A stretch of 64,000 nt of DNA from Nitrospirales bacterium. Lineage in GTDB: Bacteria; Nitrospirota; Nitrospiria; Nitrospirales; UBA8639. A model generated the notes under the pieces. That model was not told the DNA's origin. It was given only the letters and a program-made list of their open reading frames with translations, and searched no databases. Made by a program: the position numbers and the translations under genes. The DNA is taken from assembly GCA_029261355.1 (NCBI GenBank), contig JAJDBM010000010.1, positions 124,001 to 188,000 on the forward strand. Reading direction: 5' to 3'. The first letter of the stretch is position 1. Every line of letters begins with the position of its first letter. This document shows positions 2-43,984 of this stretch, in pieces.

Positions 2-751
2 ATGTTAGTCAGTGCCTCGGGAGCGTTCGCGCAAGGTAGTCCAAGTTCACGAGTTGATGGCACTATCACAAACAAAGCTCAGGTGGAAAGCTCAAAGAAC
101 ACAGCGATAGGTAGTAGCAAGACGAGTGCTGACGCGAATCAAGGTTCTGTGCAAATTTCAGATTCAAAGGTTGAGCGCAGTGGAAGCGTCAATAACGAAG
201 CCAGCATCAAAGGATCACACAATACTGCTACGGCGGGCAGAGGCAGCGCGGATGCGAATATGGGATCCGTGCAAGTGGAAGATTCCACAGTCGGTGGTCG
301 GATTTCAAATAATGCTAAAAAAATAGACCGATCGACAAATTTTGCGGATGGAACAAAGGGCACGGCGAATGCCAATATGGGATCCGTGCAATTGGAGGAT
401 TCAACGGTGGAAAAAGGCGGCACAGTGACGAATGAAGCCACCATCAAAAATTCAACCAACACCGCCATAGGCAGCTATCGTAATCGTGCTGACGCCAATA
501 TGGGGTCAGTGCAATTGAAGGATTCTATTGTGAGTGGCGATATTCACAACAAGGCCAACATTGATAAATCTCATAACACCTCCATGCCTGGTTATGGCAC
601 TGCAGATGCCAACATGGGATCCGTTCAGGTGCAAGACTCTGAAGTCAAAGGACATATCAGCAACGATGGAACCGTCAAAGATTCCACGAACCTTTCTGAT
701 GGGACCCGTGGCACCGCTGACGCCAATGTGGGATCTGTTCAGGTTGACTAA
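2..751 (+). CDS. Exported repeat protein with six A[DN]AN-x-GSVQ repeats (5' end outside window)
   Basis: The frame is open from the window edge and begins inside what looks like the end of a signal peptide (SASGAFA-Q), so the true start probably lies upstream. The mature part consists of six imperfect repeats of 38-41 residues. Each ends in A[DN]AN[MQV]GSVQ (starting near residues 43, 83, 122, 163, 201 and 239), followed by a xDSxV strand and a turn rich in N, G, S and T. Units 1-3 resemble units 4-6 in order, so a three-unit block seems to have been duplicated. The chain stops right after the last motif. Such regular N/Q/S/G-rich strand-turn repeats suggest a secreted beta-structured or fibre protein. 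The CsgG-like gene downstream supports a link to that export route, but no sequence match to curlin repeats is claimed. Confidence 0.75.
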   Translation: MLVSASGAFAQGSPSSRVDGTITNKAQVESSKNTAIGSSKTSADANQGSVQISDSKVERSGSVNNEASIKGSHNTATAGRGSADANMGSVQVEDSTVGGRISNNAKKIDRSTNFADGTKGTANANMGSVQLEDSTVEKGGTVTNEATIKNSTNTAIGSYRNRADANMGSVQLKDSIVSGDIHNKANIDKSHNTSMPGYGTADANMGSVQVQDSEVKGHISNDGTVKDSTNLSDGTRGTADANVGSVQVD

Positions 752-28312: not shown

Positions 28313-31300
28313 TTAATGAACGCGTCCGAGGATCAACTGACCCTCAACTTCACCTTTTTTTACAGGATGCTGATTTTGCCCAGTGACTGCGGGGACTTGT
28401 GTGGAAACATAGGAATAGGCCTCATCAACAGTAATCACCCCATCTGCATCAAAGTCGGCTTTGCCTTTGAGCCCCTCAAGCAGATAGTAGGTGAACACGC
28501 CGTGTCCCAGGTCATCCCGTTCTTCGCTAACTTCACTTGCCCGACTGGCGGTCAAGACTACTCGTCCTTTCCCTTCTGAGAGTCGGGAAAGAAAATTATC
28601 TGAAACGACGGCTCGCCGAGCAGCCGTTGAAAACGTTCGTCCCGCAGTGGCGCCACTATAGCAGGAATCGGTAATGAAAATGACCCGTTCAGCGGAAATG
28701 CGGTCAAAAATGGTCTCAACTTCCCTCATGGGTAATGCGGTTGTATAGAGATCGTGTGGATCGGCATCGTACGGAATAAGATACTTCTCCAGTCCATCGC
28801 CATCCGGACTTGATGAGTCGGTTTCAGGTGCACCATGACCAGCATAGTAAATAATCACTGTATCGTTGGGTCCGGCTTTTCGTTTTAATTCGGTGCCCAT
28901 AGTCCGTTTGAGATTAGTCAGGGTGGCCTGATCATTCATCAGCGTTGTCACCTGTTCCTTGGGGATCCTAACGTTGTTGAGCAGATAGTCTTGAAATGCC
29001 AGGGCATCCTTGTCCGCATACTTCAATGGCCGAACTGATTGATACTGTGAAATGCCGATCACGACGGCCCAGATTTTCCCCGTATCAAGAATTCGCATCA
29101 CATTCAATGTTCGAGTAGCGGAGACCTGTTCACCATCAAAGGCGGTGATACTAATGGTGTTGGTTCCTTCACGAAGTTGGACTGACTCTGAAAACTCAAA
29201 GGTTGTTTTCCTGATTGTATCCCCAGGAACGACCGCGATCCCACGGCCTTGTCGTCTGACTTGGAGTTCTTGATTTACTCGCACTTCGATTCGGGCGATT
29301 CCATTTTCGCTTGCTGCGGCACCGATTAATTGAATGCGGTCCAGTTTGACTTCTTGGTCTTCAAAGGGCGAGGCCAACGCGATAGCCGGAGGGGCTATCT
29401 TGGCTTGTACGGTTTCCATTTCAGAGAGTTGTTGTTTCAGTTTGTGCATCTCTTCTTGATGTTCTGTCAGCGCTTTCTCTGCTTGCTCTCGTTGAGCTTG
29501 TTCGGACTCGAGTTTTTCTTCCAGCAAGAAACGTTCGCTCGTTTGCGAAGTCGCTATGGCATCAAGCTTTGCCTGCAGCGTCTCCATTTCACGTTCGCGC
29601 TGGTGCAAGGTGGTGTTGATCTGTTCACGTTCAATGCGTTCGCGCTCAAGTTCTTCTTGGGTCGTTGACAGTTTGGCTTCCTTGGCTTGTGCGAGTTGCG
29701 TGAGTTTTGATTTGAGCATCTGCATGTCTTGTTCACGCTGCTGTAACGACTGTTCGATCTTGGCACGCGCACTTTCGGCCTGTTGCAGCTGCTCATTCAG
29801 GGTAATAAATTGCGCGGTTCGAGCGGCTTCCAACCCTTTAATTCTGGGAATGGGCATTTGCCCTTTCACACTGGTTAACGTGATGCTTGCTTGCTTTTTA
29901 GAAATCCACCCTGTTTCGTTCTCAGAGAGTTGAATGCGATACCAGTCTCCTAATTCACCTGTGGCTGATAGTGTCTGATCTTTCTGGACCGTGGCAATGA
30001 CCGATGAGTCTGAACCTGCACCGCTGAGAATGGACGCCTCAGCAATATTCACGGTCACCAACGTGTTGGTGGTGAGGATCTGAGCCGCTGGTTGCGTATC
30101 CACAGCCAGAGTTAAGGTTTCATTGAGAAACACCTGTTCAGACTTTTCTTGAATAAAGAGCTTGAACTGTAATTCAGGACTTTGATAGTCAGGCCAGACC
30201 GTAAAACTAATCCGAGCTTGTTTGGATGTTTTTGACTCAAGAGCTCCAAACCGAATCATCTGTGGCCGGATTTTTAAATGTTGGTCGGGCCCATTATTGA
30301 TTTCAACCCAGGTATTGGTAGCCGTAACAGCCCCCACGTTTCTAAGTGTTAGGAGAAGGTCTACGGCTTCTCCCTTTTGAATCCGACCATCGCCATTCCC
30401 TACTGATCGTCCACTGCCATCGTCGAGTATTTGATAATTATAGGCCAGTCGCGGTGTATGAGAGCCTGCGAGATTAATCACTGCTTCAAGAGGGGCAGGA
30501 ATAAAGCCATTATATTCGGCAAAGGTGACCTGCATAGGGGCGTTTGACGCCGTCAGGTCTGAAGGAATCTCCACATTGAAGATTTCAGTCTGACGTTGGC
30601 CCGGTTCAATCTTCCCGAAGTAGAGGATTTGTCCATCAAAGATAGGATTCTCACTCTGCGTCGTTCCGGTAAATTGATACAAGGGCCCTTTTCCGCTATT
30701 CGTTACTGTCACATGAAGTTCAATAGTTTGCCCTGGCATGGCCTCATGCGGACGAATGACGAGTTCTACCTGAGGGCGTGGAGGGGGAAAGGGGGGGGGG
30801 CCAACTTCATTATTTCGCACATGGACTTTGTGCGCGCTACTTAGGTCGCCGCGTTGAGTCACGTGCGAAGAGGATTGAAGTGGTTGAAGTCGGACCGTGC
30901 GATCTCGCCCACCTGAGGCAATGAATGTCCCATCAAGTGAAATGGCTAGAGCCCAAACTGGTCCTCTATGTTCCGTTAGAATGTGAAGCTCACGTCCACT
31001 TTTCCAGTCCCAGAGTCGAATGGTCCCATCTTTAGAGCTGGAGATAAGGGTGGTCCCATCTGGAGAAAATATGACCGATTGAATTGTGTCGGTATGGCCA
31101 GTTAACACTCCACGTTCATGTCCGGTCGCTAGATCCCACAACCGAATGGTCTTATCGACGCCGCCGCTTGCGAGGAGGTCGCCATTGGGAGAAAACGCCA
31201 CGGTGTGGATGGCGCCTTGATGTCCAGCCAACGTGTCTTGTTGACGTCCACTTGATGTATCCCACAGGTGGACTAGTGCATCACTATTCCCAGTGGCTAA

Positions 31301-31846
31301 GAGACGATTATCAGGAGAATAGGCTACCGAGAAGACTATTCCAAACCCACTCTTCATCACCTTGCGCTGTTTTTTGGCTTGCCAATCCCACAGGTAGACG
31401 CTGCCGCCATCGCCTCCTGCTGCGAGCGTCTGGCCGTCAGGAGAAAAGGTCAATGATCGGATATTGCCAAACCGCGTACTGAGGGTGGCTTGTTCTTCCC
31501 CTGTTTCCAGTTCCCATATTCGCCATGTCCGATCGCGGCCTCCAGAAGCTAAAAAGCGATTATCTGCAGAAAACGCCAAGGTATTCACCGCTCCGGTATG
31601 GCCCTTCAATTCTTGTTGTAAGCGGCCAGTTCGTGGGTTCCAGAGGCGAATGGTTTCGTCTCCACTTCCTGATGCCAGGTGAAGTCCATCTGAAGATGAT
31701 GCTAACGCAAAGACTTCCCCATGATGGCCTGTGAGGGTACGTGATGGTGTCGTTGAATACGAGGAAGGTGTGGCTGCCTCTAGGCTAAGTGCATGCATTA
31801 ATATGCAGAAGAAAATAGAGACTGAAAGTCCTAATGTTTTATGCAT
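28313..31846 (-). CDS. Exported WD40-SH3-coiled coil-caspase-like protein
   Basis: This 1177-residue protein begins with a signal peptide (VSIFFCILMHALSLEAAT). Seven WD40 repeats (about 38-325) follow (for example SPDGTTLISSSKDGTIRLWDWKSG), then a Pro-rich linker near 350, Ig/CARDB-like domains (about 357-590), an SH3-like segment ending in GDWYRIQLSENETGWISKK (about 597-656), a long Glu/Gln-rich coiled coil (about 670-830) and an Ig-like domain. The C-terminal caspase-like (peptidase C14) domain has KIWAVVIGISQYQ (from 924), YYAGHG (His 1004) and ITDSCYSG (Cys 1062), plus an EF-hand-like DFDADGVITVDE. The catalytic dyad is intact. Most WD40-caspase proteins are cytoplasmic, but this one should be exported. 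Confidence 0.92.
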   Translation of the reverse strand: MHKTLGLSVSIFFCILMHALSLEAATPSSYSTTPSRTLTGHHGEVFALASSSDGLHLASGSGDETIRLWNPRTGRLQQELKGHTGAVNTLAFSADNRFLASGGRDRTWRIWELETGEEQATLSTRFGNIRSLTFSPDGQTLAAGGDGGSVYLWDWQAKKQRKVMKSGFGIVFSVAYSPDNRLLATGNSDALVHLWDTSSGRQQDTLAGHQGAIHTVAFSPNGDLLASGGVDKTIRLWDLATGHERGVLTGHTDTIQSVIFSPDGTTLISSSKDGTIRLWDWKSGRELHILTEHRGPVWALAISLDGTFIASGGRDRTVRLQPLQSSSHVTQRGDLSSAHKVHVRNNEVGPPPFPPPRPQVELVIRPHEAMPGQTIELHVTVTNSGKGPLYQFTGTTQSENPIFDGQILYFGKIEPGQRQTEIFNVEIPSDLTASNAPMQVTFAEYNGFIPAPLEAVINLAGSHTPRLAYNYQILDDGSGRSVGNGDGRIQKGEAVDLLLTLRNVGAVTATNTWVEINNGPDQHLKIRPQMIRFGALESKTSKQARISFTVWPDYQSPELQFKLFIQEKSEQVFLNETLTLAVDTQPAAQILTTNTLVTVNIAEASILSGAGSDSSVIATVQKDQTLSATGELGDWYRIQLSENETGWISKKQASITLTSVKGQMPIPRIKGLEAARTAQFITLNEQLQQAESARAKIEQSLQQREQDMQMLKSKLTQLAQAKEAKLSTTQEELERERIEREQINTTLHQREREMETLQAKLDAIATSQTSERFLLEEKLESEQAQREQAEKALTEHQEEMHKLKQQLSEMETVQAKIAPPAIALASPFEDQEVKLDRIQLIGAAASENGIARIEVRVNQELQVRRQGRGIAVVPGDTIRKTTFEFSESVQLREGTNTISITAFDGEQVSATRTLNVMRILDTGKIWAVVIGISQYQSVRPLKYADKDALAFQDYLLNNVRIPKEQVTTLMNDQATLTNLKRTMGTELKRKAGPNDTVIIYYAGHGAPETDSSSPDGDGLEKYLIPYDADPHDLYTTALPMREVETIFDRISAERVIFITDSCYSGATAGRTFSTAARRAVVSDNFLSRLSEGKGRVVLTASRASEVSEERDDLGHGVFTYYLLEGLKGKADFDADGVITVDEAYSYVSTQVPAVTGQNQHPVKKGEVEGQLILGRVH
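30791..30800. repeat. G10/C10 homopolymer in the WD40-caspase gene
   Basis: Ten consecutive G on the + strand are C10 on the coding strand and encode the prolines of the GPPPFPPP linker near residue 350, between the propeller and the rest of the protein. Slippage of one base would shift the frame before the caspase part. Confidence 0.8.
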
Positions 31847-32352: not shown

Positions 32353-33126
32353 TTACCAAACATTTCCGGCTCCAGGGGTATAAGAGGATGAGACGATACT
32401 GTTGGTGATCACGGTGTCTGATTGAACAACGCCACTGAACTTGGCCATCCCTGAGTTGATTTTTACTATTCCACTTGAGACTTCAACTGTACTGGCATTG
32501 AGCTTGATTTTTGTTGGACTGTTGATGGTGACGGTCCCAGAACTATTCACCTGAATGATTGATTCGAGTTTTACTAGTCTGGTTTGAAGTGCGTGTATCG
32601 TTGTTTCCAGATTACTGACTCGGTGGGTTAGTTTTTGTATGGTGATATTTTTCGAGCTTGGTTGTGTGTGTTTCTTGCTCGACTGACGTGACGCGGTTTT
32701 TCGTGTTGTTGAGGATTTCGCAATTCTCGATCGTGTCACAGCTCGAGATCGGATGCCATTCACTGTGCCACTACTTTCAAATCCTTCACCTCCTGGCATC
32801 AACAATCGAATAGACTGTTGATTGCTCTCGACCGTCAGATTGACAACAGGTCGAACCATGTTCTCATCGTGGTGAATGATTGTTGCTGCTAGCAGCAGTG
32901 CGTCTCTACGTTCTTTTGGAATTAATCGAATCCACGGATGAGCGGCTTCGATTTGATAGGTGCCAGGTTCAATAAGGACGTCGCTACCATCCGCGGTGAG
33001 AAAGTAGGCAGCTTTCTCAAGTGTTGCAAACGCATCTGGGTTCGCAGTCGATGCCTGGATTGGAGCAGCTATCATTGCAATGAGGACGGCTATACAGAAT
33101 ATTCTCGTTGCTTGTTGGTTGTGCAT
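32353..33126 (-). CDS. Array paralogue 1: N-domain plus trimeric spike-like beta-helix
   Basis: GAGGAG precedes the ATG. The 257-residue product has a signal peptide (IAVLIAMIAAPIQAS). The array's shared domain covers about residues 34-130 (FLTADGSDVLIEPGTYQIEA, WIRLIPKERRDALLLA, LLMPGGEGFESSGTVNGIRSRA). A basic Ser/Thr-rich linker leads to a coiled coil (160-191). The C-terminal beta module has eight-residue periodicity (TVTINSPT KIKLNAST VEVSSGIV KINSGMAK) and ends FSGVVQSDTVITNSIV then SSSYTPGAGNVW, the tip sequence seen in phage-type spike proteins. It should trimerise into a needle. This is the last gene of the six-gene array in transcription order. Confidence 0.78.
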   Translation of the reverse strand: MHNQQATRIFCIAVLIAMIAAPIQASTANPDAFATLEKAAYFLTADGSDVLIEPGTYQIEAAHPWIRLIPKERRDALLLAATIIHHDENMVRPVVNLTVESNQQSIRLLMPGGEGFESSGTVNGIRSRAVTRSRIAKSSTTRKTASRQSSKKHTQPSSKNITIQKLTHRVSNLETTIHALQTRLVKLESIIQVNSSGTVTINSPTKIKLNASTVEVSSGIVKINSGMAKFSGVVQSDTVITNSIVSSSYTPGAGNVW

Positions 33127-33251
33127 TGCTCCTCTTTCTGGCTCTTAAGCAGTGCAGAGCCTCATATCCCTTTACCTTTGTCTTATTCAACGTTTTTTAA
33201 ATAGGTATCGCAAAAAATACTAGACAAAATGGGTGTGCTGACTTATTGCCG

Positions 33252-35429
33252 TTATTTCCGTACAAATTGTGATGATGACACTTTGTCGTTGAATCGACGT
33301 CTATTGAAATCAACAATTTCTTCAATTTTACCAGTCCCAATCAGGTCCAAGATTTTTCCTTTGTACGAGTCATGTTCATAGAGTCGATAGGCATGGCCGC
33401 GTGGAATCATGTAACGGGCAGAGGAAGCTTTATCCCCAAATCCTCGCCGGCCTTCGACATTGATCTTCTTGTAATTCTTGATAGGTCCTGATGTTCCTGT
33501 AACCTTGAGACGTCGATCTTTGAATGTGTGGTCGTCAAATAATTCAACCCATGCTTGATTCAGGTGCGTGATGGTTTCTGGTGAGAAACGCGAGGATGAG
33601 ACTTTATCGTTCCACGCACGAGAGCCTAAATGAGGTATGGCGTTCACCGTACCTGTGCCATTGAGTGCTAATTTCCGGCCTTTGAAATTCTTATCTTCAA
33701 ACAGGAGGTATTGCCAGCCGCGCGGAATGGCCCATTTGATCGATGAGGTTTTGTCTTCAAACCCTTCGACGCGATCGTAGTTTTTGTAGTTTCTGAGTTG
33801 GCGATCGATATAGTCGATGATCACGCTTCGGTCCCCATAGCTGTGGTCATCGTAGAGCTCGATCCAGGCCTGATTGAGCTTCGTGAGTCGTGGGCTGTAG
33901 GATGTTGGGACGGATCGGAATTCGTTAAGTCGTACGAGTCCATGATGGCGCCAATGTTCAATGCCATAAATCGATAAGCCCTGTGTGGGGTGAACGTACG
34001 TGCCGGCTCCCGCATCGAAGTCACACATATCCCGACAATACACATGTCGATTGGCGACTTTGGTAATCACGGTTTGTGCGGATGTTGTCTGTGATTGCCC
34101 AGATTGACTGGCTGGAAGGACTTCAATTTTGAACAAATCTGCCCAGTCTTGTCCGCCTCGTACCACACCTCCGATCTTGATGTTTTTGTGGAGACCCACA
34201 AAAAATAGCTGGCCATCACATTGACGGATGAGATTGATGTTTTGGTAATTTCCAAATTCCTGATCCATGCCCTGTAATTCTCGTTCGTGCCATGAATCTA
34301 CAAGTTCAAATGTATTGGTACTGATATTGCCATTTCGGGAAAGATAGATATCGAGGACGTTCGAATCGGCACGTCCGACGATCAATAGAAAGCGTCCATC
34401 TTGACGTTTTTCAAGAGCGGTTGCGCCGGCACTTGGTGGATCGTTGAATCCTCCTGCTGGTTGAGTCCGTGCAATCCTGTACAATTCCCGTGGATTCTTT
34501 GGATTTTCAATCGAATAGAACACCACTTCTGATTGACCATGACCTTCGACCCCTACCGCGAGTACCTTTCCCGCTACTTGTAATCCTCCAGCATGGCTGA
34601 GACGTTGACTCACCTGAATAACCTTGACTGTACGGTCATTGGCGGGAGGAACATTTGAAGAAATTCGATTCGATCGAAACTTCCCAGATGTGGGTCTTGA
34701 GCCCAATTCCACAATCAAGACTTCCCCCGCTTGAGACGAACTGCCTGTCACGGCTAAGTAATTTCCGAATCGTTGAACTCCCTGATAATGAGAATGGCTG
34801 GCTTGACCGTAGGAGCCGGGTGTTTGGGTATGGTGAAACCCCAGTTTGTCTCCGTGCGTGCGAATTTTGAGGAATTCTGCTCGAACATTTCGTAAGCAGG
34901 CGTTCGTGGCCGACAGAGTCGATTGTCGAGGAACTCGAATCTGTAGAGGCTGTTTCTTCCCGGCCAAATGTTTTGGCTGGATTTTTGCTTTTTGAATCGA
35001 CGTTTTGAGCTGTGTGGCATTCAAAAAATGAGGAGTGCCTCTGGCTCGTATCCCGGTCACGGTTCCTACCGATTCAAACTGTTGACCATTAGGTAGAAGC
35101 AACACCAGATGATAGGTGTCATGATCATTCTTTGATGTCAAAAATGAGACTGGCTGTTCGATTAATTCTTCATGTTTCGAGGCATGGGCTTCTAGTAATA
35201 AGGCATCTCGTCGTTCACCTGAAATCAATCGAAGCCATTTCTCGGCAGCCTCAACCGAGTAAGTTCCCGGTTCAACCACGAGGTCACTGGCATCAGGTGC
35301 GAGGAAATGTATTGGAGTTGTGAGTTCAACAATCGTGAGCGAATTGCTTCTTTCAGCCTGTGACGGTTGCCAGAAACCTAACAGGAAAAGCGGTAAGAGC
35401 ACTGCCAGGAGAATGTGAGTTTTTTGCAT
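33252..35429 (-). CDS. Array paralogue 2: N-domain, LVIVD-like propeller and beta/gamma-crystallins
   Basis: GGAG precedes the ATG. The 725-residue product has a signal peptide. The shared N-domain lies at about 33-142 (FLAPDASDLVVEPGTYSVEAAEKW, LLLPNGQQFESVGTVTGIRARG). A beta-propeller-like region with LVIVD-type units covers about 190-450 (NYLAVTGSSSQAGEVLIVELG, LLIVGRADSNVLDIYLSRNG). Two beta/gamma-crystallin domains make up the last 208 residues. Their four Greek-key motifs each carry the Ca2+-binding signature (EDKTSS, NDKVSS, GDKASS, NDKVSS) and a ELYDDHSYGDRS-like strand. Ca2+ should rigidify this surface protein. Cysteines occur in the middle region (CRDMCDF). Confidence 0.82.
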   Translation of the reverse strand: MQKTHILLAVLLPLFLLGFWQPSQAERSNSLTIVELTTPIHFLAPDASDLVVEPGTYSVEAAEKWLRLISGERRDALLLEAHASKHEELIEQPVSFLTSKNDHDTYHLVLLLPNGQQFESVGTVTGIRARGTPHFLNATQLKTSIQKAKIQPKHLAGKKQPLQIRVPRQSTLSATNACLRNVRAEFLKIRTHGDKLGFHHTQTPGSYGQASHSHYQGVQRFGNYLAVTGSSSQAGEVLIVELGSRPTSGKFRSNRISSNVPPANDRTVKVIQVSQRLSHAGGLQVAGKVLAVGVEGHGQSEVVFYSIENPKNPRELYRIARTQPAGGFNDPPSAGATALEKRQDGRFLLIVGRADSNVLDIYLSRNGNISTNTFELVDSWHERELQGMDQEFGNYQNINLIRQCDGQLFFVGLHKNIKIGGVVRGGQDWADLFKIEVLPASQSGQSQTTSAQTVITKVANRHVYCRDMCDFDAGAGTYVHPTQGLSIYGIEHWRHHGLVRLNEFRSVPTSYSPRLTKLNQAWIELYDDHSYGDRSVIIDYIDRQLRNYKNYDRVEGFEDKTSSIKWAIPRGWQYLLFEDKNFKGRKLALNGTGTVNAIPHLGSRAWNDKVSSSRFSPETITHLNQAWVELFDDHTFKDRRLKVTGTSGPIKNYKKINVEGRRGFGDKASSARYMIPRGHAYRLYEHDSYKGKILDLIGTGKIEEIVDFNRRRFNDKVSSSQFVRK

Positions 35430-35500
35430 GATGCGATCTCCACTGTGAACAATGTATGAGGAAAGGGAGGAGGCGTGACCGTTCTTTGTTAGCTCTTCAT

Positions 35501-36451
35501 CTAATTGATAATGGCCTGTGAGGCATCATGGAGTTTCTTCTTAGCCTCTGACAGCGCTTGCTCGGACTGTGTGATTCGTGAGGCTAAATTTTGAATCTCA
35601 ACGTTTGATTGTTTGTTGGCATTGAGTAATGTCTTCAATTCGTGTTGTAGACGTTCTTTGGTTTGTTTCGGCAGATTTTTGTCTTTGAGCTTTTGGACGA
35701 TTTGCTGTTGTTTTCTGTTGGCGACTCTGATTTTTTTAAGAAGATACCGCTTGTCCTGGTTTGTTTTTTCAATCGATTGCTGCATGACTTTCATGGTTAC
35801 TTTGAGTGCTGAAACCTTTGCTCCCCTTTCAACCTGTTGTTTCGCATAGAGGGCAGCCTTCCTTCCCATCAATGTCCCTTTTTGTCCTTGTGCCCATCCA
35901 TTTTTAGCGGACTGTTGGGCGAGCTTTTTCGCTTTATTGGCCGTGCCCTTGGTTTTCGAGACGACTTTTTTTGTTTTGGATTTCGTGTTCTTGTAGACCT
36001 GATGGGTGTGTTTCTTAATTGTTTTAAACGCGTTACGTAAGAGTCCACGTGGTCTGATGCCACTGTAGGTTCCTGTGGCTTCGAGGCTTTGGCCATCAGG
36101 AAGCAAGAGAAGAATATGGTGAAGGTTTCTGTCTTCTTTCGTTTCGCCTGGTACTGAAAGGGCCAACACATTCGAAAGTTGCAGTTCATGTGTGCCATGT
36201 TGGGCTTCGATGAGTAGGGCATCGTGCCGTTCATCTGGGATTAACCGAATCCATTCTTCCGCGGCTTCGACGGTAAACGTCTGTGACTCCGTGATAAGGG
36301 GACTGCCGTCGGGAGCAAGGAAGTAAACCGGGGTGTCGAGCTCAATCGTGGTGAGAGGGTCGATGATGGTGGCATGGGACTGAAAACCAGTTGCCACCCA
36401 TATACATATGGCCATAATTGTGATTGTAAAGATGTGTCGAAGTCTCATCAT
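35501..36451 (-). CDS. Array paralogue 3: N-domain plus coiled coil
   Basis: AAAGGA precedes the ATG. The 316-residue product has a signal peptide (IFTITIMAICIWVATGFQSHA). The shared domain covers about 32-140 (DTPVYFLAPDGSPLITESQTFTVEAAEEW, WIRLIPDERHDALLIEA, HHILLLLPDGQSLEATGTYSGIRPRG). A very Lys-rich segment (KKHTHQVYKNTKSKTKKVVSKTK) follows, then a long basic coiled coil to the C-terminus. The basic rod could bind nucleic acid, polyanionic polysaccharide or lipid; this is inference. Its N-domain is the closest to that of the crystallin paralogue. Confidence 0.78.
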   Translation of the reverse strand: MMRLRHIFTITIMAICIWVATGFQSHATIIDPLTTIELDTPVYFLAPDGSPLITESQTFTVEAAEEWIRLIPDERHDALLIEAQHGTHELQLSNVLALSVPGETKEDRNLHHILLLLPDGQSLEATGTYSGIRPRGLLRNAFKTIKKHTHQVYKNTKSKTKKVVSKTKGTANKAKKLAQQSAKNGWAQGQKGTLMGRKAALYAKQQVERGAKVSALKVTMKVMQQSIEKTNQDKRYLLKKIRVANRKQQQIVQKLKDKNLPKQTKERLQHELKTLLNANKQSNVEIQNLASRITQSEQALSEAKKKLHDASQAIIN

Positions 36452-36493
36452 GGATTCCTTTGATTCTTAGGTCGCAATTCATTGAACGACTCA

Positions 36494-36533
36494 GAGTCGC
36501 AGCGTGCCATTTTATTTAATGGACGTGCGAGTC
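36494..36533 (-). terminator. Hairpin after diheme array paralogue 4
   Basis: GAGTCGCAGCGTGCCATT (36494-36511) pairs with AATGGACGTGCGAGTC (36518-36533), with a few mismatches and a six-nt loop, eight bp after the stop codon at 36541. Confidence 0.5.
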
Positions 36534-36540
36534 TCGTGTT

Positions 36541-38016
36541 TTAACGTCTGGGGAAAAATTTTCCTGGTACTGTTCTTCGGGCACGTTGGAAAAATTTTGA
36601 CTTGCTTGGGCATGGTGCTCCGGCAGCCACCCAAGGATCGACTTTACTGAACCAACGGTGAAGTTTATTCTTCAAAGGCACGGCTAGGTCTGGGCGATTA
36701 AAGGGGACCCAGCCGCTACTCACAGCCCACAATATCCTAGGATCATCGTGGAAGTGGTGGGTGAGGTCGACTGCGGAGCCAACGTTGCCATTTTTATCTG
36801 TAAATGGCCCCGTGACTTTCTGGCAGACCCGGCTGGGACTCCACCCTTTCCAGTTAATCCCTTGAACGTGGTCTGGGGAAAACCATTCATTTTGTAAATC
36901 CATAGACGTATGACTCGACCCCGAAGGAATATTATGACAACTCCCGCAAAATTCAGGGTTATGTGGTTTGGCTTCCTCCACATCAGGATAGTTGCCAGCA
37001 CCTAATCGGTCCTCATGCATGGCGACAATAGCTTGCCTGTCTCCAAGCATGTGGCAGGTGGTACAGCGTTCGTGTGAAAAGATCGGGTGAAGAACTGAGG
37101 TGTAATAACTGATGGTGTCAGCATAGATTTTGGTTGTTGGCGATTCCCATCTATTTTTTCCTTTGATCAAGGTTAGTTTGATCGTTTTCGGCCATGTTTT
37201 GGCTCTGGCCTTGGTCAGTTTCACTCTGGTCCGAAGGGTTCCGCCTTTTCCAAAGCTGACTCTGTGTAATGGAGTTTCTTTCCCGTCAATCATGAGTTTG
37301 ATGCAGCAATGTTTTTTCTTAACGATTTCTTGAATGGCGGTAATTTTGTTGGGGATGAGTGAGGGTTGACGCGCCGACTTTTCCCAAAATCCTGCCCATG
37401 CAAAGGTAAAAGTACCAGACCCAATCGTATCATTGATGGGGAGTTGCCATGTATGTTTTGATTTACTTCCGTTGTACGGTCTTCGGCTTCCTTTATAGGT
37501 GACCGACGCCGAAGACAAGATGAGTTGTGTCTGGAGAGCCCGTCGCTGATTTTTAATGTTGAGCTGACGTGTGACTTCTGCCTCAGGCACATGGGGACGT
37601 TTCGCTGCACGAGAATGGACTCCGCTGCGAGACCCCCAGGTCTCCCATCCTTTGCCATTCGGGAGCAATAGTATGATGACCTGATTATTTTTTTTATTGG
37701 TGAGTGTCACGGCCATGGGATGGTCCACTGTTTGCTTGTGGTCTGTGGGTGTTGCTTCGATGAGCAATGTTTCTGCACTCGTCCCTTCTTCCGCAATAAG
37801 GCGAAGGCCGCCTTTTTCGGCATAGACTTCATAGGCTCCAGGGAGGACGACGACATCTTCTCCCGCAGGAGTGAAGAAATGTACGGCTGTGTCAATTCCT
37901 ACCACTGCGGGATCCTGTTCAACCGTCGGAGTGACCTGAGTGGTCGAGCAGGCATACAGTAGTGCCAGAAACCCAAGCGAACTTATGAATAGCTTGAACG
38001 ACCGTAGCATTGGCAT
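36541..38016 (-). CDS. Array paralogue 4: N-domain lipoprotein with diheme c-type module
   Basis: ATG 38016 has AAGGAAGG upstream; an in-frame ATG at 38067 is less likely. The 491-residue lipoprotein (lipobox LLYAC) has the shared N-domain (HFFTPAGEDVVVLPGAYEVYAEKG, LLLPNGKGWETWGSRSGVHSRAAKRP). A middle beta domain follows (SVTYKGSRRPYNGSKSKHTWQLPIND) and then a C-terminal region with two CxxCH heme-c sites (CTTCH near residue 318, CGSCH near 357) and several other histidines (HHFHDDPRILWAVSSG). It is closely related to the next array member (38957), so the pair arose by duplication. Periplasm-facing electron transfer or redox sensing is possible. Confidence 0.82.
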   Translation of the reverse strand: MPMLRSFKLFISSLGFLALLYACSTTQVTPTVEQDPAVVGIDTAVHFFTPAGEDVVVLPGAYEVYAEKGGLRLIAEEGTSAETLLIEATPTDHKQTVDHPMAVTLTNKKNNQVIILLLPNGKGWETWGSRSGVHSRAAKRPHVPEAEVTRQLNIKNQRRALQTQLILSSASVTYKGSRRPYNGSKSKHTWQLPINDTIGSGTFTFAWAGFWEKSARQPSLIPNKITAIQEIVKKKHCCIKLMIDGKETPLHRVSFGKGGTLRTRVKLTKARAKTWPKTIKLTLIKGKNRWESPTTKIYADTISYYTSVLHPIFSHERCTTCHMLGDRQAIVAMHEDRLGAGNYPDVEEAKPHNPEFCGSCHNIPSGSSHTSMDLQNEWFSPDHVQGINWKGWSPSRVCQKVTGPFTDKNGNVGSAVDLTHHFHDDPRILWAVSSGWVPFNRPDLAVPLKNKLHRWFSKVDPWVAAGAPCPSKSKFFQRARRTVPGKFFPRR

Positions 38017-38066
38017 CAGGGTTCCTTCCTTTATAAATGCAGTAGTGTGTTGTTGAGGATGAAGCA

Positions 38067-38288
38067 TTAAGAAATGACTATCATTATTATGGTTAGAGTA
38101 AGAATTAGTTGCTCAATGAGTGTTGGCCGGTGAACGTCATCTGTATGAATCGTGGTTTCTTCTGTAAAAGATCTAGACCCTCCGGTAACCGGCATTCCTT
38201 GGATTCTCTTGTCAATTTCTGGAAATGTCATTGCTTCTCCGATGGTGTTTATACCTAGAATTATCATGATCGAGACTGTTTTGGCCAT
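38067..38288 (-). CDS. Small exported peptide in the array
   Basis: The 73-residue product has a signal-like N-terminus (VSIMIILGINTIGEA), a short polar middle (TFPEIDKRIQGMPVTGGSRSFTEETTIHTDD) and a hydrophobic C-terminus (LIEQLILTLTIIMIVIS). It lies directly before the first diheme paralogue on the same strand, 50 bp away. The ribosome site is poor, so the start is uncertain. No family was recognised. Position beside the array suggests a co-expressed small envelope partner. Confidence 0.45.
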   Translation of the reverse strand: MAKTVSIMIILGINTIGEAMTFPEIDKRIQGMPVTGGSRSFTEETTIHTDDVHRPTLIEQLILTLTIIMIVIS

Positions 38289-38914
38289 TATTTCACACTT
38301 TCATGGGTATGAATCGCAATAATGCTGCCTTTGGTTGAAGGTGCGTCTTGCTCGTTGGCCATGTTGATTGCTTAGTATCTTGTCACTAATTTCTGCATCA
38401 GATTATCTTCTTGTTCATGACTTTTTACTGTATCGACGACTTTATTGATTGATTGGGGTGTTGTGTCGTGCTTGTTGAGAAATGTGTTGTGGCATTGGGA
38501 CGCCTGGTCGAACATTGTCACGAAGAGAGGGATAGAATATATCGGATTGTCATGTTCCTTTTTTAAGCAGGGCGGCGGCGATGCTTGCCCGTAGATTGCT
38601 ATTATACGTGTTTCCTTGTGCCCTTTTTCTATACAGGAGCGAGGGTTTTAGTTTGGGCGAGGCTGGAGCCTGCACGGTCTTTTGTTCGTATGTCGTTAGC
38701 CATGTCCAAAAGGTTCACGTGCGGTGGAGGTCATGAGCCAAGAAACCGGCAGCGTTTCAGCATGAACAAGAAGCTGGAGTTCAGGATTGATCTATTCCCT
38801 CAGAGAGATTGGATTCTGTGAAGTGGTGTTGTCCTGAGTGCGTAGAGGAGGGCAAAGATCTGGTCGAGAGTGTGGTGAAACTCATAATGTATACGTGTAT
38901 CTAACATCTGACTG
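38289..38914. other. Decayed stretch between array members
   Basis: About 630 bp without an acceptable gene. Near 38606-38640 the DNA weakly repeats the sequence around the hairpin at 38915 (TATACGTGT ... CCTTTTTCTATACAGGA), so it may be a degraded copy of a former array unit. A + strand frame here (38585-38821) looks accidental. Confidence 0.35.
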
Positions 38915-38951
38915 GTACGCGCCCTTTTCCATACAGGAAAAGGGCGCGTAC
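38915..38951. repeat. Perfect 16-bp inverted repeat beside diheme paralogue 5
   Basis: GTACGCGCCCTTTTCC (38915-38930) is followed after a 5-nt loop by its exact complement (38936-38951). The hairpin is 5 bp downstream of the stop codon at 38957, so on the minus strand it would act as a strong stem after the gene. It lacks a clear U-tract. Confidence 0.75.
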
Positions 38952-38956
38952 GGTGC

Positions 38957-40408
38957 TCATCGTTGAGGAACAAGATTCCGAGGAAGGGTTCCTCTGTTCC
39001 GATGGGAAAACTTTGAATATGTTGGACAAGGTGTTCCAGCATCCACCCAAGGATCTACTTTATTGAACCAGGCATTGAGATTATCGGGAAGAGGAACGTT
39101 GAGATCATTACCAAATGGAGTCATTCCATCGCTGACTGCCCAGAGAATTCTTGGGTCATCATGAAAGTGATGATCAAACCTGGCATGGTCGAAGGGCGGT
39201 TCGACTACGCCGTCTTTATTTTTAAATGGCCCTGTCACTTTATGACAGACTTGGCTGGCATTCCATCCCTTCCAGTTGATGCCCTGTGAAGCAGACGGAG
39301 AAAACCATTCATTATTGAGGTTTGCGGCGTTATGACACGTTCCACAGAATGTTGGATTATGAGGTTTGGCTTCTGGATTATTTTCATGCGGATAACTGGC
39401 AGCACCGAGACGAGTTTGATGCATCTCCACGATTTTGTCATGGGTTCCAAGGGTATGACAGGTCGTACATCGGTCATGTGAAAAAATTTGATGCAGCACT
39501 GAGGCGTAATAACTGACGGGTGTGGCGTAGATTTTTGTTACGGCTGATTCCCATTTTCTCTGACCTTTTGTGACCATGACTTTGACGGTTTTCGGCCATG
39601 TTTTGGCTCTGGCCTGGGACAATTGTATCGTGGTCTGTAAGGTCCCGCTTTTGCCGAAGCTCATACGGGGTGCAGGGGTTTCTTTGCCGTTAATCAAAAC
39701 TTTGATGCAACATTGTTTTCGTTTAACAAGATTCTGAATATCCCCAATTTTGCTGGGGACGAGTGTTCGATTCCCTGGATATCCTGCCCACGAGAAGGTG
39801 AAGCTCCCAGAATTGTGTGTGTCATTTACGGGTAGTCGCCAGGTGGATTTTGATTTTCTTCCATGGTGGGTTTTCTTTTCCCCTCGGTACTTTACTGAAA
39901 CGGTAGACAAGGTCAGTTGTGGTCGGAGTAAATTTATCTTATTTCTGATGGTAAGATGTTGTTTAATTTGGGAGCTGGCTGTGCGAGGACGCCGTGCAGC
40001 TCGGGAATGAACTCCGCTCTCGGACCCGAGGGCTTCCCATCGTTGACCATCCGGAAGGAGTAAGGTGATGATCTGACGGTCTTCCTCTTCTGATAGCATC
40101 ATTGCTGTTGGATGTGTGACCGATTCTTCATGTTTTGCAGCTTCAGCATCGATCACCGTCGATTCAGAGCCTGTGCCTTCTTCGGCAATGAGCCGTAGCC
40201 CATCTTTTTCAATTTTGACCTCATAGGCTCCTGGTGATACCACGACATCTTCCCCATCAGGCGTGAGGAAATGTACCTGTTTGTCAATTTCCACAGTCGC
40301 GGCTTCCTGATTGCTGGTGTTGGTTGATTGTGGTGTTGAACAGGCAAACAGAAATGCCAGACAGCCGAGTGAACTCATGAGTACTATGAACGATCGTATG
40401 ATGGACAT
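38957..40408 (-). CDS. Array paralogue 5: N-domain lipoprotein with diheme c-type module
   Basis: ATG 40408 has AAGGAAGG upstream and gives the lipobox LFAC. The 483-residue product shows the shared N-domain (VHFLTPDGEDVVVSPGAYEVKIEKDG, LLLPDGQRWEALGSESGVHSRAARRP) and the same middle domain as paralogue 4 (SVKYRGEKKTHHGRKSKSTWRLPVND). Its heme sites are CTTCH near residue 314 and CGTCH near 355. Further conserved elements are GINWKGW, VCHKVTGPF and HHFHDDPRILWAVSDG. Paralogues 4 and 5 align along their whole length. A strong hairpin follows the stop codon. Confidence 0.82.
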   Translation of the reverse strand: MSIIRSFIVLMSSLGCLAFLFACSTPQSTNTSNQEAATVEIDKQVHFLTPDGEDVVVSPGAYEVKIEKDGLRLIAEEGTGSESTVIDAEAAKHEESVTHPTAMMLSEEEDRQIITLLLPDGQRWEALGSESGVHSRAARRPRTASSQIKQHLTIRNKINLLRPQLTLSTVSVKYRGEKKTHHGRKSKSTWRLPVNDTHNSGSFTFSWAGYPGNRTLVPSKIGDIQNLVKRKQCCIKVLINGKETPAPRMSFGKSGTLQTTIQLSQARAKTWPKTVKVMVTKGQRKWESAVTKIYATPVSYYASVLHQIFSHDRCTTCHTLGTHDKIVEMHQTRLGAASYPHENNPEAKPHNPTFCGTCHNAANLNNEWFSPSASQGINWKGWNASQVCHKVTGPFKNKDGVVEPPFDHARFDHHFHDDPRILWAVSDGMTPFGNDLNVPLPDNLNAWFNKVDPWVDAGTPCPTYSKFSHRNRGTLPRNLVPQR

Positions 40409-40473
40409 GAGGAATCCTTCCTTTAGCACGACTTTGGTCTAATGATTGATAATGGGACGTATCGTTCGCGTTT

Positions 40474-40644
40474 TTATTCTTGTCCTGTAAACTTCATGGT
40501 GCTAGTGGTGATATCGACAGCTGGAAAGCCTGGCCCACCGGTAAACTTCATCGTTGATGTTGTCTTCTCGATTGGTTGAAAGGCCACTGCCAGTCCAATT
40601 CCCATTATAAAGAGAAGGGCCACGTAGGTGAGTATTTTTATCAT
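40474..40644 (-). CDS. Exported mini-peptide with duplicated TTSTMKFTG motif
   Basis: ATG 40644 shares one base with the stop of the upstream paralogue (TAATG), which supports translational coupling. The 56-residue product has a signal peptide (ILTYVALLFIMGIGLAVAF) and a mature peptide containing TTSTMKFTG twice, separated by GPGFPAVDI. A longer upstream start would overlap the neighbour by 60 bp and is less likely. The duplication suggests a repeated binding or cleavage unit; function unknown. Confidence 0.6.
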   Translation of the reverse strand: MIKILTYVALLFIMGIGLAVAFQPIEKTTSTMKFTGGPGFPAVDITTSTMKFTGQE

Positions 40645-41507
40645 TAGTTCACCGGTGCCAGTATGTTGCGAATAAAAGGGGTCTCGTTGGCTGCGACAGA
40701 CCAAGCCGGCGCAGAGTTGGCGGCAGGATGCCCATATGACAAGGGCTGTCGAAACCCAATGCCGGGTTTGTGGAATTGCATGCCACAGTGGTAGTAATCG
40801 GCATTTTCAGGTTCTTTCCCTTGCATTGCATTAAACTTGACCACGACCGTTCCGTTAAATTGTTGGGTGGTCAGATTCACGATAGTTTTCCCCTCGCCGA
40901 TGCGTTTGTTTGGTTTGGTTGCATCATTTCCGCTAAAGGTATCACATCGAACTTTGAACTGATTGATGTCGGTACTAAGGTTATTGAGCTGAACAGGCAC
41001 GCGGAATGTAAAATGATATGGGATTGCATGCGGTATACGTTTTCTCTGCTTGAATTGACGCGTAATCACTGCACGAGACACTCGTTTCCCACTGCGTCGT
41101 GCCGCCCTTGATTGGATACCACTATATGATCCCATGGCTTCAAGGGCGGTTCCATCTGGAAAGAGGAGCATGACGATATGTTCATCTTCTTGTTCTGAAA
41201 ATGAGAGCGGCGTTGCCGTTTCTACCGTTTCCTCATGTGTTGTGACGCGAGCATCTAATAGTATAGGTACGTCAGAGCTTCCTCCCGTTAATTGAAGTGT
41301 TCCCTGCGAAGAGCTCATCTCATATGTGCCAGGCTGTACCTGCGTGGTTTCACCAGATGCATTCCCAAAGTGTATCGTACGGTCGAATGGTATCGAGGTC
41401 GATTGTGATTCTGAGGAGTCAGAAATATGCTTCGACGAGCAACTTGTCAAAGCTCCTATACATCCGATTATGCCAACCAACATGATGATAGAGACCTTCT
41501 GCTTCAT
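40644..41507 (-). CDS. Array paralogue 6: N-domain lipoprotein with C-terminal beta domain
   Basis: AGGAG precedes the ATG. The 287-residue lipoprotein (lipobox LTSC) has the shared N-domain in a more diverged form (IHFGNASGETTQVQPGTYEMSSSQGTLQL, HIVMLLFPDGTALEAMGSYSGIQSRAARRSGK). A C-terminal domain follows, rich in strands (YHFTFRVPVQLNNLSTDINQFKVRCDTF, TIVNLTTQQFNGTVVVKFNAM) with two cysteines, suggesting a small beta-sandwich. No CxxCH motif is present. It begins 92 bp downstream of the lectin-like gene and overlaps the mini-peptide gene at its stop. Confidence 0.75.
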   Translation of the reverse strand: MKQKVSIIMLVGIIGCIGALTSCSSKHISDSSESQSTSIPFDRTIHFGNASGETTQVQPGTYEMSSSQGTLQLTGGSSDVPILLDARVTTHEETVETATPLSFSEQEDEHIVMLLFPDGTALEAMGSYSGIQSRAARRSGKRVSRAVITRQFKQRKRIPHAIPYHFTFRVPVQLNNLSTDINQFKVRCDTFSGNDATKPNKRIGEGKTIVNLTTQQFNGTVVVKFNAMQGKEPENADYYHCGMQFHKPGIGFRQPLSYGHPAANSAPAWSVAANETPFIRNILAPVN

Positions 41508-41599: not shown

Positions 41600-42334
41600 T
41601 TATATCGCACTTTGATACCAGCGACGATTGGCGTTGTTTTGACAGTTGTCAGTCATCCTGGCTTGTCCGCTTCTGGTGGCTACGACGCATCCGCGCTCGA
41701 GAGTGCCCGATTCTAATATGTCTCCAGATCCAAAGGGCGGCGTGTCGTTGAAGTTCCATGTTTGACTACGTGGGACTTGCCCTGGGCGTCCGCAGGTACG
41801 TTGGAGAAGGTCTCTCCCAACACGTTCAATGCATTTGCCGGAATTCATGTTCTCCAATTGATATCCACCAGGGTAGGCCCCATCTTTTTTAAACCACCTG
41901 ATGCTTTTCTTTATATTCTTACAGTTTGAAAGTATTATCTTTACATGTTCTCTGGTACTTCCTCCTCTGGGACGCAAGCAGGCCCTGTTTTGCTGCTGCT
42001 TCGAAGTGCCATATGGGCGTTTGACTGTCCGATACGAAATACGCGAAACCTCACTTTTAATTTTGATCGGAATAAAGTTCAGTCCTCGTGTCTTAATATG
42101 GCAAGCCGGTCGTTTATCTTTTTCCACGCAGTCTGATGGGGTGTCACTGTCAACGATTTCGATATCGGGGTCGTTGCCTTCTTCGATTTCTTCTACTTCT
42201 ACGGTGGGGTTCTGTAGGGCTGATTTAGTTTCTGCGGTGGTTGTCGTACAGCCCCAAAGAAACACAAGGGAAGCACAACATGCCACAAGGCATTTCGTGA
42301 AAGTCGAAAGGTTGTCAATCTGGTCTTGCTGCAT
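41600..42334 (-). CDS. Ricin-type beta-trefoil lipoprotein
   Basis: ATG 42334 has AAGGAG upstream. The 244-residue lipoprotein (lipobox LWGC) has an acidic linker (VEVEEIEEGNDPDIEIVDSD). A short region (ISYRTVKRPYGTSKQQQNR) resembles the middle domain of the diheme paralogues. Three trefoil-like units then follow with Cys...Cys...W: ACLRPRGGSTREHVKIILSNCKNIKKSIRWF, KCIERVGRDLLQRTCG...SQTWNF and GCVVATRSGQARMTDNCQNNANRRW. Ricin-type trefoils often bind sugars, so a lectin role is inferred. A decayed second copy lies just upstream. Confidence 0.72.
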   Translation of the reverse strand: MQQDQIDNLSTFTKCLVACCASLVFLWGCTTTTAETKSALQNPTVEVEEIEEGNDPDIEIVDSDTPSDCVEKDKRPACHIKTRGLNFIPIKIKSEVSRISYRTVKRPYGTSKQQQNRACLRPRGGSTREHVKIILSNCKNIKKSIRWFKKDGAYPGGYQLENMNSGKCIERVGRDLLQRTCGRPGQVPRSQTWNFNDTPPFGSGDILESGTLERGCVVATRSGQARMTDNCQNNANRRWYQSAI

Positions 42335-42506
42335 AAAGGTCTCCTTCATAAAAAAAACAATCAATGACGCTCTCAGAGTGGCATGGGAGTAGCTTAAAAT
42401 ATGTGACACATTGAAACGGGTTGCTCAGTCGGTCGTTCCTTCTCGAGTTCATGTAGCAGGTGTTATCCTCCTCCGCAGAAAGTAAGACTCAAAGAACCGG
42501 TGACTC

Positions 42507-43270: not shown

Positions 43271-43984
43271 ATGAAGGAAGCAACCAAGTGGCAAGCAGTA
43301 TCGAATGCGGTGCTGGTATTGGGTGTGTGTGGGGCATTGTTATTTCCATTGGTAATATCTGGAAAGGCTTCTGCATCTGAAGAGAATGAGCAAGTCGATG
43401 CAAGTGTCGAGGCAGGGCTGGAAGGTGAGATCTCAACCCGTGGACTACAAGGAAAAAGGCAAAAGCCTTCCATGCGAAAGGCTCAGGCATCATCGAAGTC
43501 ATCGAGTGCTGGAACATCACAACAGTTAGCGAAATTGCAGCAGCAAGTGAACGCACTACAGGCACAAGTGAACGCATTGCGGGCAGTTATTCAGGTTGCA
43601 AATGGGACGACCACCCTGCAATCAAAGCATATACGCATTCAAGGAGAGACGGTGATGGTCAAGAGCCTCAAAGGTGGAGTGACCTTTGAATCAAAAAAAG
43701 ATTTCAAGCTTGAATCGAAGCGTCGCATGACAGTGAAAGCCAGTACGCGAGTCGATCTTGAAGCGGGGGTTAACCTCAATGTGAAAGCCGGTGCGCAGGT
43801 CGATCTTGAGGCCGGGGCAAAACTCAATGTGAAGGGTGGTGGTCTGACGAGCATACGAGGTGCAATCATTAAATTGAATAATGGAGGAAAGCCGATCGCA
43901 AGACTTGGAAGTACAACGATGACATCGCCGGTAGGGGGACCAGGGGCTGTCACGAGTGGGAGTCCGACGGTGTTGGTTCCGTGA
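43271..43984 (+). CDS. Free-standing exported spike-like trimeric beta-helix protein
   Basis: GGAGGAG precedes the ATG. The 237-residue product has a signal peptide (LVLGVCGALLFPLVISGKASA). A coiled coil lies at about 83-107 (QQLAKLQQQVNALQAQVNAL). The beta region (112-205) has eight-residue periodicity, as in the T4 gp5/VgrG spike needle (MTVKASTR VDLEAGVN LNVKAGAQ VDLEAGAK LNVKGGGL TSIRGAII). It ends in a Gly/Pro/Thr-rich tip. The same build occurs in array paralogue 1. A spike exported by Sec rather than by a phage-type baseplate is unusual. Confidence 0.78.
   Translation: MKEATKWQAVSNAVLVLGVCGALLFPLVISGKASASEENEQVDASVEAGLEGEISTRGLQGKRQKPSMRKAQASSKSSSAGTSQQLAKLQQQVNALQAQVNALRAVIQVANGTTTLQSKHIRIQGETVMVKSLKGGVTFESKKDFKLESKRRMTVKASTRVDLEAGVNLNVKAGAQVDLEAGAKLNVKGGGLTSIRGAIIKLNNGGKPIARLGSTTMTSPVGGPGAVTSGSPTVLVP

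Follow-up and report, generated by a model that had tools for sequence, protein, structure and literature searches.

A tandem array of exported paralogues with a shared N-terminal domain and a candidate arginine processing site in Nitrospirales

The cargo of the type IX secretion system (T9SS) of Bacteroidota carries a shared C-terminal domain (CTD) that is cleaved by the sortase PorU (PMC8545088, PMC4560394), and in polymorphic toxin systems one N-terminal trafficking region is followed by many C-terminal modules that undergo exchange (PMC3482391). Among proteases, the non-metazoan members of the C14 family characterised to date cut after Arg/Lys, and the single orthocaspase tested autoprocesses (PMC5756287). 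Here, a stretch of 64,000 nucleotides from a nitrite-oxidising Nitrospirales bacterium (assembly GCA_029261355.1, contig JAJDBM010000010.1, positions 124,001 to 188,000; hereafter the window) was analysed, in which six genes encode paralogues with one N-terminal domain (the N-domain) in front of different C-termini. It is quite possible, although we hold this tentatively, that the N-domain acts as an exported sorting or pro-domain peculiar to Nitrospirales, behind which an Arg-specific envelope protease would cut, the best candidate being a C14-DUF4384 protein.

T9SS cargo with its cleaved CTD offers the closest working analogy, and membership in that system is not claimed. As in T9SS cargo, surface passengers of many unrelated kinds carry a signal peptide and one small shared domain. 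In T9SS this domain is cut by the cysteine protease PorU, and here a comparable cut would be made, but the domain is N-terminal instead of C-terminal and the protease candidate belongs to C14 instead of C25. PorU and the caspases both fall within clan CD. The N-domain did not match the named T9SS families; the T9SS components themselves were not searched for. The candidate protease resembles the cyanobacterial C14-DUF4384 orthocaspases in the p20 His-Cys dyad, in the Arg/Lys specificity described there and in the DUF4384 partner (PMC6426788, PMC7475262), but it differs from them in its signal peptide, in its link to a single genomic system and in a site motif that its neighbours also carry. 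The array has the single N-terminal region, the many C-terminal modules and the module exchange of polymorphic toxin systems, whereas no toxin/immunity pairs were found. Relatives of the window genome further show Pfam matches to the hub, OB, tube and spike domains of the type VI secretion system (T6SS) and phage tails, from which they differ by Sec or Tat signals, tandem gp19 tubes and, in several genomes, no detected sheath.

The six-gene array and its N-domain

The window comes from a genome of 4.63 Mb in 74 contigs (G000, the window genome), a member of the order Nitrospirales. The genes of the array are named here by their first window position.

32353..33126, minus strand: exported N-domain protein; C-terminus with coiled coil and short beta-helix spike (weak Pfam and PHROG matches)
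32737..33033, minus strand: N-domain of 32353 (alignment and profile)
33252..35429, minus strand: exported N-domain protein; beta/gamma-crystallin-like C-terminal repeats (below the Pfam cut-off, E 0.0014)
35037..35336, minus strand: N-domain of 33252 (profile; modelled, pLDDT 86, all-beta)
35501..36451, minus strand: exported N-domain protein; basic coiled coil C-terminus (composition)
36044..36352, minus strand: N-domain of 35501 (profile)
36541..38067, minus strand: lipoprotein-type N-domain protein; diheme cytochrome c C-terminus (CxxCH at residues 335 and 374)
37603..37908, minus strand: N-domain of 36541 (profile)
38957..40429, minus strand: lipoprotein-type N-domain protein; diheme cytochrome c C-terminus, duplicate of 36541 (CxxCH at residues 321 and 362)
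39995..40300, minus strand: N-domain of 38957 (profile)
40644..41507, minus strand: lipoprotein-type N-domain protein; C-terminal domain without database match (Pfam), ortholog in G001
41100..41399, minus strand: N-domain of 40644 (profile)

A first-pass annotation of the window had described six co-oriented, exported or lipid-anchored paralogues with a shared domain of about 100 residues, and the reading frames, all open and co-oriented, the alignment and the profile agree with it. The six N-domains align over about 100 residues with 12 invariant columns and are 24-45% identical to the first. Sec-type signal peptides were found in 32353, 33252 and 35501, and a Cys at a lipobox-like position in 36541, 38957 and 40644 (..LYAC, ..LFAC and ..LTSC, respectively); export signals were called by visual inspection and a simple hydropathy criterion, with no trained predictor, and the Cys positions were read from the sequence. 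A profile built from the six rows recovered the window copies at E 1e-40 or better, together with three further genes elsewhere in the genome: one on C58 (E 7e-34), one at C10:226166 with two domain copies, and a DUF928 protein at C10:217100. As the window rows had themselves built the profile, the independent support comes from these extra genes outside the array.

The C-termini had been announced as six different ones. The modules are indeed unlike, but they amount to five types, since the cytochromes 36541 and 38957 form a duplicate pair, with 59% identity between their N-domains and 56% between their C-termini; apart from this pair, the C-termini are unrelated to each other. The two diheme proteins were correctly read, with two CxxCH motifs in each, and the basic coiled coil of 35501 agrees with its composition. 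The spike of 32353, whose C-terminus is orthologous in G001, G067 and G070, and the crystallin-like repeats of 33252 are to be taken as tentative at the level of the matches listed above, and the beta domain proposed for 40644 found no counterpart in the database. A predicted structure of 38957 was set aside (pLDDT 53 with only 5 sequences). Inside the array, window 38068-38956 is a gap without a likely gene, at both ends of which a CCCTTTTCC-type inverted repeat seems to be present; at window 2-751, a protein built of ADANMGSVQLEDS-type repeats is probably exported.

The wider family was represented by an alignment of 102 N-domain rows (A6). Among these members, the Pfam scan gave no consistent family over the curated cut-off, the best match being BACON_2 (3.3e-5, weak, only 8 of the 102), with Glyco_hydro_5_C as a further weak match in a minority; NCBIfam gave nothing consistent. 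A window member scanned against Pfam and NCBIfam had no match, and a PDB sequence search returned nothing confident. The fold prediction proposed in the first-pass annotation yielded an all-beta domain (AlphaFold2 with 102 sequences, mean pLDDT 86), for which Foldseek found nothing below E 0.03 (PDB) or 0.02 (viral models) and VIA gave Z of at most 4.2. With no confident match in any of these searches, an origin in a family listed in these collections was rejected. Judged from its sequence the N-domain is a new family, as the absence of a named one had suggested, although weak fold matches do not prove a new fold.

The genome sets profiled were 49 genomes of the family, 236 of the order (37 genera) and an even sample of 396 of the phylum. 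The N-domain was present in 17 of the 49 and in 38 of the 236 (10 of the 37 genera), and in the phylum sample it was confined to Nitrospirales; named contigs that carry it come from Nitrospirota metagenome-assembled genomes such as RBC_NOB5, SZUA-312 and Nitrospira CR1.3. Up to 16 copies occur per genome. By hand count in G000, G001, G011 and G059, 33 of 39 N-domain genes had another one at a distance of <=5 kb; recurrence in tandem arrays, which had been predicted, therefore holds for most copies there, and some copies stand alone. Neither of two outcomes named beforehand as adverse, a match to a Pfam family of ordinary function or homologues scattered singly, was encountered. A pattern scan of genome contigs for N-domain genes reached 7 close loci. 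With one member as query, no record matched in the plasmid or the phage collection, and an origin from either was dropped.

The N-domain stands directly behind the signal peptide in all six window genes and, with few exceptions, in a set of 97 extracted proteins; as predicted, it is nearly always found on exported proteins. Some proteins carry a duplicated domain, and in a few Nitrospira proteins it is internal; at L293:10552-11889, L280:13280-14677, L291:8350-10908 and L284:15456-17309, from some Nitrospira, it occupies a central or rear position within larger exported proteins, preceded by an RG[VIL]E-type site. By BLAST, the C-termini of the 97 proteins form 40 groups, of which a few are truncated or empty, and they make up about 25 or more unrelated types, which bears out the design of one N-domain with many C-termini. 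They include cytochromes, spikes, lectins, lipases, PI-PLC, amidases, beta-helices, coiled coils and others, those named by Pfam being PI-PLC-X, Lipase_3, Amidase_2, Peptidase_S74, PAN_4, FG-GAP, Beta_helix, DUF928 and a DUF6519 fragment. The array-mates G071:C410:375 and 3081 have N-domains that are 87% identical and C-termini that are unrelated, which shows that modules are exchanged. One N-domain subfamily ends in DUF928 (4.6e-26) and in this resembles DUF928 proteins; this branch, however, has no Arg site (see below) and is seen once per genome. Nitrospirales DUF928 proteins with the N-domain at the front were observed in 8 genomes (e.g. L043:9100-10263).

The arginine site and a candidate protease

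Three findings go beyond the first-pass annotation: an Arg site where the domain ends, an exported caspase and, in relatives, tail-like genes with export signals. The N-domain ends in the motif S-G-[IV]-x-[SP]-R-[GA]. Arg104 has the highest column information (3.67 bits) within the final 45 positions of A6, and its column holds Arg or Lys in 91 of the 102 rows; the 11 exceptions are eight DUF928 members and three others. Conservation is gone two residues further on, and column information gives no support to a conserved helix behind the site, which was rejected. In the AlphaFold2 model the stretch follows the last strand and has lower confidence. The candidate sites of the window, found by motif, are listed with a slash at the putative cut, together with two exported-type genes that have no N-domain.

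32743..32745, minus strand: Arg codon, candidate processing site GIRSR/AV (32353)
35040..35042, minus strand: Arg codon, candidate processing site GIRAR/GT (33252)
36047..36049, minus strand: Arg codon, candidate processing site GIRPR/GL (35501)
37609..37611, minus strand: Arg codon, candidate processing site GVHSR/AA (36541)
40001..40003, minus strand: Arg codon, candidate processing site GVHSR/AA (38957)
41106..41108, minus strand: Arg codon, candidate processing site GIQSR/AA (40644)
41600..42409, minus strand: seventh co-oriented, lipoprotein-like gene, without N-domain; weak ricin-type lectin match (Pfam)
42086-42088, minus strand: Arg codon, candidate site IKTR/GL (41600)
43271..43984, plus strand: Sec-signal protein with coiled coil and spike beta-helix, without N-domain (PHROG baseplate, 1.6e-5)
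43439-43441, plus strand: Arg codon, candidate site GEISTR/GL (43271)

Exported neighbours without an N-domain thus carry the site motif as well, in the window as IKTRGLNF (41600) and GEISTRGLQ (43271) and elsewhere, for example, as GEVGSRGMP and DGIESRGLN. The strict motif occurred 31 times in 152 exported cluster proteins, where permuted motifs occurred 1-3 times; among 74 exported proteins of the window genome taken as controls, it was seen once. When the exported cluster proteins lacking the N-domain were grouped into 70 independent families, 17 had the motif and 0-2 had a permuted one. A motif [IV]xSRG[VIL]E[GE] was also observed in many exported Nitrospirales proteins, frequently within an acidic tail close to the C-terminus (L051, L186, L282-L291; e.g. 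IMSRGIEGGEE, VLSRGVEGEAV).

Caspase-like C14 genes adjoin arrays in seven genomes. The one next to the array in the window also flanks arrays in G001, G011 and G071:

28313..31846, minus strand: neighbour with signal peptide, WD40 propeller and caspase-like domain with GHG and DSC dyad motifs

Another type consists of a signal peptide, C14 (PF00656, 1.4e-27) and DUF4384, with the His-Cys dyad intact (SGHG and DSCHSG). A comparable Arg site is located in its p20/p10 linker, some 30-40 residues after the catalytic Cys: VRTRAIVP (G000, G001), VKTRAVIP (G059), EVHTRGNI (G186) and EIQTRGAV (G117). The remaining C14 types that were read have no such linker site. From the C14 family and the linker motif, the C14-DUF4384 proteins would be expected to cleave after Arg/Lys. 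They were seen in 25 genomes, 23 of which have the N-domain (hypergeometric 8e-20, computed, as for all genome associations, without phylogenetic correction). No link between Nitrospira and orthocaspases was found in the open-access literature, a coverage that limits this negative. At L044:2173-6016 and in orthologs in L049, L053, L056 and L085, a conserved block with DUF4384 lipoproteins, a zf-HC2 anti-sigma factor and an ECF sigma factor adjoins the C14-DUF4384 caspase and N-domain genes, and may regulate them.

The reading that we prefer, in which the N-domain is a cleaved sorting or pro-domain, would run as follows. The signal peptide would carry each protein across the inner membrane, and the all-beta N-domain, which is conserved and folds by itself in the model, would mark or hold the passenger in the envelope. 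An Arg-specific envelope protease, for which the exported C14-DUF4384 orthocaspase with the same site in its own linker is the best candidate, would then cut at [IV]-x-[SPT]-R/[GA] in the conserved linker that directly follows the N-domain, so that the C-terminal module would be released or activated. By their architecture, these modules may be exchangeable working parts such as adhesins, lectins, spikes, cytochromes and hydrolases.

Several points weigh against it. We infer cleavage at the Arg, and likewise surface delivery or outer-membrane translocation, instead of observing them, and the Arg might have a structural role or belong to a binding motif. C14 proteases overall occur in 196 of the 236 order genomes, and the mere presence of C14 was therefore dropped as evidence, only the C14-DUF4384 subtype being informative; about a dozen N-domain genomes show no gene of that subtype. 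In held-out genomes the strict motif was weakly enriched, with 7 proteins in all and with 5 of 60 families against 1 control of 72, and the P1' residue varied among held-out members (D, T, H, E). A broadened motif speaks for the reading, with 17 of 121 versus 1 of 58 in further genomes (permutations 0-2), but it had been picked after inspection of some of those sequences.

Exported tail-like parts in related genomes

Arrays in relatives contain VgrG-like hubs with Sec signals (Phage_GPD, 9e-64), tandem gp19 tubes with Tat signals (7e-19), and gp5-type (1.5e-10) and DUF2345-like spikes with Sec signals; two Hcp proteins of G222 also have Sec signals (1e-20, 9e-24). The hub, tube and spike domains found with export signals in related clusters are PF05954, PF04717, PF05638, PF06841 and PF22178. 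Strong Tat-gp19 was detected in 14 genomes, 13 of them with the N-domain, and exported-type VgrG in 8, 7 of them with it.

Sheath genes were checked in 15 genomes, some of them incomplete. VipB was found in G000, on another contig than the array and near an ordinary VgrG, and in none of the 14 other genomes. Phage_sheath_1 matched in 6 of the 15, in each case at a distance from the array (another contig or region), and had no match in G011, G086, G120, G159, G186, G216, G218 or G222. Exported VgrG, Hcp and gp19 loci were observed at L180:2490-4394, L180:519-1070, L180:4612-5133, L090:3773-5455 and L090:12769-13962, mostly with no sheath gene detected in the genome. Of the exported tail parts, G000 has spikes only: gp19 was not found there, and its only VgrG has no signal peptide. 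This ordinary cytoplasmic VgrG lies near VipB, unlike in the 14 relatives (G000:C24:296327-305206; L113, L234), and the locus is probably a canonical T6SS. A gene for a CxxCxxCC (YkgJ-like) metal-cluster protein was noticed near exported VgrG or tube genes in several genomes (L090:1567-2283, L086:5349-6116, L182:14960-15670). Among open-access titles and abstracts on Nitrospira with VgrG or contractile injection, and on VgrG with signal peptide and tail tube, none describes such a system.

Alternative readings and their meaning for Nitrospirales

The N-domain might instead be an ordinary uncleaved beta-domain for anchoring or for surface binding to glycan, peptidoglycan or a membrane protein, with the RG motif as a linear binding motif or structural edge. 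The all-beta model, the minority of weak matches to the beta-sandwich families BACON_2 and Glyco_hydro_5_C, the duplicated domains and the lectin-like passengers are consistent with this, but exported proteins that lack the domain have the motif too, as do the caspase linkers, and no confident fold match was obtained, so that we consider it unlikely. An adaptor role like that of PAAR or MIX, by which the N-domain would dock effectors onto an exported, sheath-less tube and spike of Sec/Tat-exported VgrG, Hcp, gp19 and spikes, would account for the presence of exported VgrG, Tat-gp19, gp5-type spikes and Sec-Hcp within arrays, for the N-domain in most genomes with Tat-gp19 or exported-type VgrG, and for its own fusion to a spike in 32353. 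However, about 25 of the 38 N-domain genomes, G000 and G001 included, have no strong exported gp19 or VgrG match, and many passengers, such as the cytochromes and DUF928, have no obvious use on a spike. We consider this reading unlikely as well; in the lineages with tail genes it may hold.

A toxin-like system, which the first-pass annotation had named beside a modular surface system, would make the N-domain a trafficking domain and the C-termini toxins against other bacteria. The shared N-terminal domain with exchangeable C-termini and a few hydrolase tips (lipase_3, PI-PLC, amidase) fit this idea. Against it, Pfam revealed no nuclease, deaminase, ADP-ribosyltransferase or similar tips in 20 C-terminal representatives, no small immunity-like partner genes lie within the window array, and the passengers are mostly lectins, cytochromes, beta-helices, coiled coils and spikes; the suggestion is not supported and highly improbable.

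A more inclusive proposal than the cleaved sorting domain is possible but less likely than not: an undescribed Nitrospirales envelope system, in which an exported caspase-type protease would act at one common Arg site on a whole class of surface proteins, many of them made as N-domain pro-proteins, and in which the cargo of some lineages would include a sheath-less exported T6SS/phage-tail tube and spike.

Nitrospirales do much of the world's nitrite oxidation, and to our knowledge the way in which they build their cell surface has been little studied. A shared, possibly cleavable N-domain would allow many unknown surface proteins to be annotated jointly. An exported caspase with defined envelope substrates, if true, would give bacterial orthocaspases a concrete job, and tail-tube and spike proteins with export signals and no detected sheath would contradict the usual view that assembly takes place only in the cytoplasm. 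The array points to an unstudied sorting or activation of surface proteins in Nitrospirales.
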